Below the pieces are notes generated by a model. The model had not been told where the DNA came from and ran no database searches. It saw nothing but the letters and a program-made list of their open reading frames with translations. A stretch of DNA of 64,000 bases from Macrocystis pyrifera. Taxonomy: Eukaryota > Sar > Phaeophyceae > Laminariales > Laminariaceae. The stretch covers positions 4,958,429 through 5,022,428 of the forward strand of contig JASSKH010000026.1 of assembly GCA_031763025.1 (NCBI GenBank), written 5' to 3'. Of this stretch, positions 15,401-18,400 are shown piece by piece. Within the stretch, counting starts at the first letter, position 1; each line of letters begins with the position of its first letter. Both the position numbers and the translations under genes were made by a program.

Positions 15401-18400
15401 TAGTGCTCCCGCTATAGTGCCGGTTGCCCGCTATAGTTAGTGCCAGTGAAATCGCTTGGCACAGATGGGATCAACCAGTGTGGTAGTGCGTTAAGTAGTG
15501 CTGGTTGCCGCTATTAATAGTGCCGATATTCTTGACTTGCGCATATATACCGGCACTGTATACCAATAGGAACCACTACTGCTGTACGTACATTTATGCG
15601 AGTGAACGTGACATGAGCGAGATACCGTAATATCCTCTGTCAACGCCGCCGTCCTTGTGTTGCCCCCCCCCCCGTACATGGTCATACGACTACGGCCATG
15701 CATGGGATGGAGTACATCTCTCCTATCGAGTACACCCCCCCCGTACCTGGTTATATATATATAGGTTGGGGAGGCGTCGGTTGGCGACGACGCTGTAAAA
15801 CACGCCTCTCACTGCGTGAGCTAGACAGTCAGGGTACCGTTTTTTTTTTTGGCGGTCACCACGACTGGCGGTCGAGTTGGATCATCTTTGTGCGGGGACA
15901 ACCTGAACTCCGCACAAGGGGGATGATCGTATCACGTACCTGGTAGTGTGTATATGGCCAGGCACCCACGAGGCAGTTACATAGTCAACGTGTTGCTGTC
16001 TCTGGAGGCACACCAGAAATAAATCAATTCATTGACGCTGTCATCCATACGAAAGAAAATCCGCCTCAAAAACGGTTCTTAGTAGGATGCAGCTCGCCCT
16101 TCATGCGACTCGCCCAACACCTCACGGCGCTTTGCCCTTGGTGCAAGCAATGTCTACCTGGTCTATGAAAACACGACATACTCTACCCCGGCATTGTAGG
16201 GGTGCGAGGGTCTACATGGTCATGCGACTACGGCCATGCATGATAATGAGTACACCCCCCCTCCCCCCCCCCCCCCCCCCCCCCCCCCCCCCCCCCCCCC
16301 CCCCCGATCTATGGTAATACGACTACAGCCATGCATGATATCGAGTACCCCCCCCCCCCCCCTGCTCCCGCAAATCGCCGAAAACGTGGTGAAACGTCGT
16401 GCTATGTACGTATCCCCGGGGAATGTTTTTTTTTTCTTATTGACGAAATTCGCACTACTTCTTTGATATCCCCGGAGACAACTTTTTATTATCAAAATAA
16501 ATCGCCCTCCCCCGGGGGACAGCACGAATGTCCTTGGGTTCGACGAGCCGCCGAAGGTCAAAACAGGGGCTTGGGGCACTCCCGAGTCTAGGATTCTTTC
16601 GTTTGGTGTCAGAGGGGGCAAACCCCCTGCTCCTCGTCGCGACTATACTGTACCCCCGACGAAGGGTACCAGCACCCCCAATTGTTGTCCGTCCTTCGCT
16701 TCTTACGTGCTCGCTCGTAGATGCTGGTGAGACCCGACATCGCCGGCTACTGAGCGCGAGGTACACGGCGGCGGGGAAGCGAGCTACAACAACAGCAGTA
16801 CACACAGGTCTGAGGCGGATTTGTCGAGAACAGTGTTTTTTGGAAAAAAAAACCGGGGAGTTTTCTCACTGGGGGCATGTTTGAATTACGATGAAGTCCT
16901 ACCTCTCTTTGTTCTCCCCGCGGGGACAACGTTTTATTGAAAACAAAAAAAGCTCGCTCCAGGGAGCGTTGACAGAGGATATTACGGCGGTACTTATACG
17001 TAGTGTCGACCGGATCTTTCCCCCCTCCCTCCCCCCCGCCAATATCGCAATTATCGCAGTAGGCCGTACTACTATTAATATAATCGTGATCACAATTATG
17101 TTCGGAGGATCGGATCGGACCGGATTGAATTGGAATTGTTACCCCTTCTCGGAAACCAACTCGGGTGCGTGTGCGTTGTGTGCTGCTCGTATAATACTGC
17201 TGTCCGTCGCACACACAACCGTGTAAAAAGGTATGATATGTGTGTGCATGAAACCGTTCTTTCCTACCCGTCGACACCAGCACACCCAATCAACGTCCGC
17301 GCTGATCGTTCATCCTATATAAAGATATACAAGCTTCGTACCTGGTATGTGGTAAAAAACAAGACGCATAGATACTACCGTACGTTGTAATGCAGCAAGG
17401 AGAGTAGCCAAGGCAATGAATGCTATGTTCATCGTACTGGATACGAAAGGCACAGCACAAACACGCCAGCAATCCAGATACGTTTGAGAGAGAAAAAAGA
17501 AAGAAAGACAAGGCCAAACTGAAAGAAATATTTATTCTCAAGAAAAAAAAAAAGAAATGAATGTTGTCGTATGCAGCAGCAGTATTTGAAGTGCAAGACG
17601 TCAACACAAAAAAAAGAAGGCTTGGCATACCGGGCAAGTCAACCCTTCTAGGATCGCAGTCCCGTTTTGGGGACAAACTAGTTAGATAAATTATTACGGG
17701 GGTCCATAGTTAATAGGACCTATTGTGTAGATAAAATCTATATATTTAGGTATTTTTACTAACAAAATTTGGTCCCGTTAACTATGGACCCCCGTAATAC
17801 TTAGAATTTGAGTGGTTTGTCGCCAAAACAGGACTACTGCAGTCTGGCACAACAGCTTCAACACGCCCCCTCCGACGAATTCCCAGAGGCGATTACATCG
17901 ACAACGGAGAGAGTGCAACCAACGCCGAGCGATTCGTCAAGTAAAGTCGCTATTTCCTATTTCCTACAATTGTCGTAAAAATAGTGTGCGCCACCCAGGC
18001 TCTGAAATTAAAATCCCAGAGGAGGTGTGCTATCTTGCGTGTCATCAGTTACCACGAGCGCAACAGCAGCAGGAGCAGCAGCAGCAGCAGCAGCAGTAGC
18101 AGGCGTAGCGGAGATGGGTGACGAAGGGGCTAACAGCGTGTGCCCTTTTGTCTCAGTCCCTTGCCTGTCTACCGTTATCTGTCTACAAATCTCTCTACCT
18201 GTCGACCAAGCTGTCGTCTACCTGTCTGCCTGTCTTTTATGTCTGACTGTCTGTTTGCTCATCTACCCGTCTACCTGTCTACCTGTCTGTCTGTATATCT
18301 TTGCTGGGATATCATACGTATGCTCTGGAAGTAGCGCCGGTGGCAACGGCGAAGCACGAAAGCAAGAGGTCGGGAAGGGAAAAAGACGACGAGAGAGGAG

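Follow-up and report, generated by a model that had tools for sequence, protein, structure and literature searches.

In Ectocarpus, a nonautonomous family of about 600 bp, RTEX-N1_Ec32, has been described in more than 6,000 copies, with a 3′ end like that of the autonomous RTE-X LINEs RTEX-1_Ec32 and RTEX-2_Ec32; in the sections of that account consulted, the authors determine no origin for its 5′ part and leave its status as a SINE open (PMC12477816). SINE/LINE pairs with a common 3′ end (~100 nt in tobacco TS) that closes in a simple repeat have been reviewed, and stringent recognition of the tail has been proposed in the part of the review consulted (PMC3747384). A comparable pair, consisting of a short element of ~510 bp and a LINE, is present in the window analyzed here, by which we mean a whole stretch of 64,000 nt of DNA from the kelp Macrocystis pyrifera. 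Likened by description, RTEX-N1_Ec32 and the kelp short element very probably belong to one kind of element, and are perhaps members of one family. The consulted sections of the Ectocarpus account, however, contain no mention of poly(C), of targeting to C tracts, of a tail inside an ORF, or of hybrids (PMC12477816). Tails common to short elements and LINEs, including a like pair in Ectocarpus, are known already; the link of poly(C) as both tail and target, the position of the tail inside the ORF, and the hybrids are new. Literature searches on poly(C) tails and targets, and on tails combined with kelp, returned nothing alike in the titles and abstract openings of the entries listed, which is not proof of absence.

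A total of 27 insertions was counted in the window: 3 near-full and 14 truncated copies of the short element and 10 copies of the LINE. This set was not selected by query, and fragments of ~20 nt or less were left out of the count. In the genome (537 Mb in 223 contigs), at least 43 near-full short elements were found among 47 listed matches, window copy included, a number that is a lower bound because 40 of 9,640 candidates were scored. For the LINE, there were at least 71 matches to the protein P0001 (68 scored of 21,553 candidates), and 20 loci were read. These 43 full short-element copies and 20 LINE loci were chosen by similarity to the query and do not form a random sample.

Judged by their consensus sequences, the short element and the LINE of this genome have a common 3′ end. 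The alignment of this end runs from GTGCTCCGTC to GAGTAC and covers 74 nt of the short element and 66 nt of the LINE (gaps of 5, 1, 1, and 1 nt), with 55 of 66 aligned positions identical and 11 different. With poly(C) excluded, the alignment score was 64, whereas dinucleotide shuffles averaged 18 and 0 of 5,000 reached 64; the score fell to 52 on removal of the last 15 nt and to 40 on removal of the last 30 nt, values likewise reached by 0 of 5,000 shuffles, and removal of the last 20 nt gave the same 0 of 5,000. A single-copy pair (15759 versus 61917) gave a weaker result (0 of 5,000, and 14 of 5,000 without the last 15 nt). This bears out the initial annotation, which had pointed to a series of words in the same order followed by poly(C), and the similarity persists outside the final ~15 bp; its length, given there as the last ~100 bp, is 74 nt. 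No similarity above chance was found upstream of GTGCTCCGTC (2,124 of 5,000 shuffles reached the score), and the likeness of the short element to the ~4.2-kb LINE is limited to the last 74/66 nt, followed by poly(C). While a poly(C) end common to both families could suggest convergence or a chance likeness of C-rich ends, such an origin is scarcely credible, as it is contradicted by the shuffle tests made after removal of poly(C) and the last 30 nt, and by the hybrids described below. As it has the same 3′ end as the LINE, the short element very probably borrows the copying enzyme of the latter. Its features are in good agreement with those expected of a nonautonomous retroposon copied in trans by a LINE with an APE-type endonuclease, probably of the RTE/RTE-X kind, and we regard this as the likely explanation of the pair.

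The consensus of the short element, built from 43 full copies at 39 genome loci, is 516 nt long without poly(C), with a median identity of copies to consensus of 95.7%. Its 5′ end is TATATTATATACCTGGTATATATAGG, which lies 10 to 20 nt before TATAGGTTGGG and mostly right behind a C tract; in 40 of the 43 full copies, at least 5 consecutive C occur in the 45 nt that precede the match to the 15759 copy. Since the 5′ end follows a C tract in most copies, the TATAGGTTGGG start lies some nucleotides inside the element. All 3 near-full copies named in the initial annotation were recovered, but TATAGGTTGGG, taken there as their beginning, is located at 15760, 55448, and 60814, whereas the copies start 10 to 20 nt earlier. 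They occupy 15743..16254, immediately 3′ of a C8 tract, 55438..55943, after C18, and 60801..61317, after C20-TA-C29, all on the plus strand. In the first of these, which reads ATACTCTACC in place of the GTGCTCCGTC of the family, the domain common with the LINE (74 nt in the consensus) lies at 16178..16253 and the poly(C) tail, C7-T-C43, at 16255..16305. This copy is closely flanked by 2 tail-only copies on the same strand, one upstream between C tracts (15678..15716) and one downstream inside poly(C) (16308..16348), and a third tail-only copy (55381..55420, plus) lies upstream of the copy at 55438.

The other short-element copies are 5′ truncated. On the plus strand, these are found at 5957..6210, 48862..48978 (after C26), 49824..50089, 51376..51583 (as aligned, without a C6 run within 25 nt), 54456..54599 (after C36), 54646..55120, and 59880..59957 (without a C6 run within 25 nt); on the minus strand, at 10611..10702, 10728..10817 (as aligned, without a C6 run within 25 nt), 32125..32380, and 58501..58715. 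In addition, a 17-nt fragment of the end of the tail lies between C10 and C28 (52863..52879, minus), and a 19-nt stretch with the same end lies between C10 and C11 (59968..59986, plus).

Several further features of the short element were observed. An inverted repeat, TATATACC-T-GGTATATA, is present at its consensus 5′ end (5′ ends in L009–L047). A doubled variant of the tail end, GAGTACATCTCTCCTATCGAGTACA, occurs at 15710–15734 and 55937–55961 and in L024 and L036; it looks like what the decay of an old inner C tract would leave. At L010, L024, L036, and L041, two full-length short elements lie head to tail with a C-rich stretch between them; one of the tandem copies of L036 is only 72% identical to the query.

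No ORF of at least 200 aa was found at the 3 full copies. When the 516-nt consensus was compared with 2 long LINE copies, the body of the short element showed no similarity to LINE DNA except for a 22-nt match at E 4.7. Among 16 LINE proteins, only P0015 gave a match with E <0.01, through a short-element part of its own: this protein consists of a LINE end, PPPPPPP, and then a peptide like the short-element tail (E 2e-8). Judging by its sequence, the short element is without coding capacity for its own reverse transcriptase (RT). With neither a relation to the LINE body nor a 200-aa ORF, it does not appear as part of a protein-coding transposon, the alternative that had been raised for it. Derivation from the LINE by internal deletion was considered as well, and was rejected given the lack of similarity beyond the last 74 nt, with the 5′ end of the LINE not firmly known.

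The longest similarity among LINE copies spans ~4.2 kb (L061, L066), and most of the copies compared are 94% to 97% identical. The LINE has both an APE-type endonuclease and an RT: Exo_endo_phos (PF03372, with PF14529) was detected in an ORF of L066, and RVT_1 (PF00078) in an 856-aa frame of L057 and in P0001. Among solved structures, matches were found for the RT and none for the endonuclease ORF. The longest window copy (13212..14411, plus) is 5′ truncated and decayed, retains the C-terminal part of the RT, and is followed by G and C33. It was matched by 16 proteins, whose named sources are Ectocarpus sp., Sphacelaria rigidula, and one MAG labelled Parasphingorhabdus; the protein query began ~110 residues ahead of the LINE part, and the matches, which start at 13212, rest on the remainder. 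The LINE is probably of the RTE/RTE-X kind, a clade name that we borrow from the wording of the Ectocarpus paper for the like pair. Searches with P0001 and alignment A1 against the genome and viral contigs yielded stretches that matched a pattern, of which 0 were confirmed, and exact tail patterns gave no result in viral contigs.

The remaining window copies of the LINE are tail copies and 3′ copies. Tail copies lie at 1127..1173 (plus, after C20), 24583..24643 (minus, between C8 and C45), 52889..52947 (minus), 53101..53163 (minus), 61471..61535 (plus), and 63911..63980 (plus), and 3′ copies at 46627..46730, 57559..57664 (as aligned, without a C6 run within 25 nt), and 61804..62005 (after C15), all plus. 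The copy at 61471 has a C tract and GTTCG (5 nt) on both flanks, a possible target duplication.

In the LINE, the shared tail is coding sequence. It forms the end of the ORF, stop codon included, and is followed by poly(C); the 3′ UTR is very short and ends in the simple repeat, with the stop ~5 nt before poly(C). In the copy at 13212, the shared domain occupies 14347..14411 and the stop codon, TGA, 14405–14407, and the encoded peptide differs from that of other copies at a few residues. Across the 5 homologues that fully cover the tail (P0002, P0003, P0005, P0011, and P0014; the partial coverers P0008 and P0012 were left out), 91 of 105 tail-encoded residues agree with P0001, versus 507 of 669 just upstream, a modest excess that is not seen in P0003 alone. 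The RTE elements described in Lepidoptera are similar to the kelp LINE in having a single ORF for endonuclease and RT that runs almost up to a simple-repeat 3′ end, and in their many 3′ partial copies; the consulted part of that work describes the generation of simple sequence repeats, but neither targeting to homopolymer C nor a dependent short element (PMC2887409). The 3′ repeats listed for green-algal RTEX elements in the consulted part of the review are (CA)n, (CAA)n, (CCAT)n, (ACAATG)n, and (CTTGTAA)n, in contrast to poly(C) in the kelp pair (PMC3747384).

When folded alone, each tail adopts the same predicted branched shape, with a closing stem GTGCTC/GAGTAC and the hairpins GTCYC/GGGAT and TGGTC/GACTA, and the 5-nt indel between the tails sits in the loop of the first hairpin. 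Taken singly, neither tail folds more stably than its shuffles (z −0.05 and −0.72), but the joint RNAalifold energy was equaled by 1 of 500 column shuffles (z −3.67). Only 1 of the 11 substitutions between the tails falls in paired columns, which make up 39 of the 66 (P 3e-4), and among 400 random mutants, 2 retained all 3 stems. Folding with more surrounding sequence abolished the closing stem in the short element (probability 0.0) and left it at a probability of only ~0.5 in the LINE, so that the 2 hairpins are the safer part of the fold. Within the families, the closing stem showed no covariation, its variation consisting mostly of single changes, as expected of dead copies. Recognition of a structured 3′ tail by the LINE protein, as proposed for the kelp pair, has been described for ZfL2-1 and ZfL2-2 of zebrafish, where the structure is a stem-loop and binding was tested, according to the sections consulted, whereas the branched fold in kelp is a prediction (PMC4176376).

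The initial annotation had called the short element a SINE that borrows the machinery of its partner. Borrowed machinery is supported by the above-chance similarity confined to the 3′ end and by the hybrids, but the strict label does not hold: we found neither a Pol III promoter nor a head related to tRNA, 5S, 7SL, or another small RNA. The A and B boxes looked for in the head were of no higher quality than those of shuffles, 224 of 300 of which did equally well, and all 43 full copies have a run of 4 to 22 T near nucleotide 100 of the head. Runs of T terminate transcription by Pol III. ARAGORN found no tRNA, and no Rfam family matched the window at gathering score, 2 full copies giving E 2.7 and 2.5, far below gathering. 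With no A/B boxes above shuffles, a T run in the head, and no small-RNA relative, a Pol III product of 500 nt is unlikely. The element has the length, copy number, shared LINE tail, and 3′ homopolymer of a SINE, and could on these grounds be taken for a classical one with a degenerate or unusual Pol III promoter; we consider this quite improbable in view of the boxes at shuffle level, the T4–T22 runs, the frequent 5′ truncation, and the lack of a tRNA or credible Rfam match. Rather, the absence of Pol III boxes above chance and the T run suggest a LINE-dependent retroposon. Many of the SINEs covered in the consulted part of the review have tRNA or 5S heads, in contrast to the short element, whose head has no known source; MAR4, RTESINE1, and Bov-A2 resemble it in lacking a small-RNA head (PMC3747384).

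The 2 families are further linked by hybrids. A query composed of LINE body and short-element tail was used, and hybrids were called by span, length, and identity. Among 40 scored genome places, 10 clear, 2 probable, and 1 unclear join-spanning matches were found; C197 and C194 are the probable ones (89% and 86%, no net gap) and C127 the unclear one, the main LINE itself reaching 87% but being 3 nt shorter. In the 5 hybrids that were read, bodies are 77% to 90% identical to the query LINE and tails 89% to 100% identical to the short element over 54 to 55 nt (80% to 90% and 91% to 100% in the 4 that were fetched). All 5 switch at consensus position 462, a point fixed by the query itself for 4 of them. 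At L064, the 3′ part of a LINE passes into the short-element tail inside the shared words, and at L067, the end of a LINE that lacks poly(C) joins directly to position 215 of the short element. The hybrids may have arisen when one enzyme switched templates, or may represent an old LINE lineage that bears a short-element tail, and by either route they tie the short element and the LINE together; they could alternatively come from recombination.

As the tails of the 2 families differ at 11 of 66 positions plus gaps, the young LINE may not be the direct donor. It is conceivable, if not the reading we would choose, that the direct partner is another LINE lineage that carries the tail of the short element, with the abundant young LINE as its relative. 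The body and tail identities of the hybrids, and their common switch point, are in line with such a lineage. On the other hand, a tree from alignments too short to tell a subfamily from repeated switching does not group the 5 hybrids as one clade, the switch point was set by the query for 4 of the 5, and each was read over at most about 1.2 kb.

Copies of both families lie mostly at C runs, some of which are the C tails of copies inserted earlier. Of 189 chained matches, 181 reach the 3′ end and 174 of these have 30 nt upstream. A C6+ run lies within 25 nt upstream of the 5′ junction in 125 of the 174 insertions, and in 23 of the 27 in the window, against a background of 3.9% at random positions outside elements in the same DNA; G6 (0/174), A6 (1/174), and T6 (3/174) are nearly absent. 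Truncated copies also follow C runs, and the C tract is therefore not the element's own 5′ end. The C6 run is missing in 4 of the 27 window insertions and at L009 and L017; the latter, which shows an 18-nt duplication but no C tract, lies inside another copy. For 5 of the 27 window insertions (random, 1.8%) and 68 of all 174 (random, 2.6%), another element on the same strand terminates no more than 90 nt upstream. The figure of 68 is biased, since some loci were fetched around tandem copies; in 63 of the 68, at least 5 C lie between.

Words behind the C tract that recur after the insert are modestly more frequent than in mispaired flanks, and this evidence is thin; single long words are the better evidence. 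Words of at least 5 nt were duplicated in 12 of 174 insertions (mispaired mean 3.85, maximum 11 in 300 trials) and words of at least 6 nt in 9 (mean 2.15, maximum 7). Of these 9, TCGTAACT (L057), ACCCGAGC (L068), and GAGGTGAT (L071) are informative; 5 are C-rich (L029, L064, L066, and 2 in the window) and 1 (L036) marks where the next tandem copy begins. A stricter count gave 10 of 174 at 5 nt (mispaired mean 4.03, maximum 9 in 200 trials) and 6 of 174 at 6 nt (mean 1.60, maximum 7 in 200 trials), including GTATAATCTTG (L015), AGCTTC (L027), and GAGGTG (L071). The C tracts on the 5′ side might instead have expanded from short C runs or arrived with the insertion, without any target preference. 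C tracts are indeed very common in the window (77 C/G tracts of at least 8 nt in all of it, versus a mononucleotide-shuffle mean of 1.76), tail lengths vary, and most insertions have no target word beyond C. Yet at L057, L068, L071, L015, and L027, a unique word between the 5′ C tract and the insert is repeated after the tail, placing that C tract outside the insert, and nontemplated addition of C to first-strand cDNA would by our reasoning leave G rather than C on this strand. We thus regard expansion or co-arrival as improbable and continue with C tracts as targets.

Taken together, copying in trans could proceed as follows. An RNA of the short element, probably not a Pol III product, would end in the LINE-like branched 3′ domain and poly(C), both of which are present in the DNA. 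The LINE protein would bind this domain, which in the LINE is the final part of the ORF with its stop codon. The endonuclease would open DNA mostly at C/G runs, matching the site preference seen, and the G-rich primer strand would pair with the poly(C) tail, allowing reverse transcription to start. Copying would often stop early, and copies truncated from the 5′ side down to a few tens of nucleotides are found. Every insertion would leave a new C tract able to receive the next, an order of events suggested by the nesting. We lean, with some reserve, toward the fuller proposal that homopolymer C serves as both RNA tail and DNA target, with insertions building the next landing pads, that the domain admitting a template lies inside the ORF and stop of the LINE, and that the hybrids represent domain swapping. 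SART1 similarly inserts into a simple repeat and depends on its RNA tail for the start of copying, but its target is the telomeric repeat and its tail poly(A), as given in the sections consulted, whereas homopolymer C is both tail and target in kelp (PMC7265360).

This proposal offers a testable account of how the pair may work, centered on a compact 3′ RNA domain that overlaps coding sequence, and the hybrids could serve as natural domain swaps. A primer rule by which the poly(C) tail pairs with a G-run primer would explain the landing sites, the nesting, and the many C tracts of the window. To our knowledge, there is almost no retrotransposon biochemistry from the brown-algal lineage.

Some other features of the window were recorded. 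Many C/G tracts have no recognized element alongside, such as C17 at 26263 and C69 at 56524 (minus strand). MITE-like elements of ~105 to 116 nt, with ends like GGGGTCCATAGT... and ...ACTATGGNCCCCCGTAATA, are abundant (5015–5204, 12253–12368, 25383–25498, 49405–49520, 54705–54820, 59285–59400, and others), and one of them splits the short-element copy at 54646–55120. The exons of a glycerol-3-phosphate dehydrogenase gene lie on the plus strand within 48600–62100; the closest matches of its exon pieces, at 48.6–61.7 kb, are to brown algae (Scytosiphon promiscuus, 84% over 73% of the query; Ascophyllum nodosum, 81% over 73%), with other ochrophytes next, in keeping with a brown-algal host. Fifteen of the 27 counted insertions fall within 48600–62100: 12 share the strand of the gene and 3 are on the opposite strand. 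Finally, at 32420–32520 on the minus strand, near the same-strand short-element copy at 32125–32380, lies what we take, by eye, to be an exon resembling a CCT chaperonin subunit.
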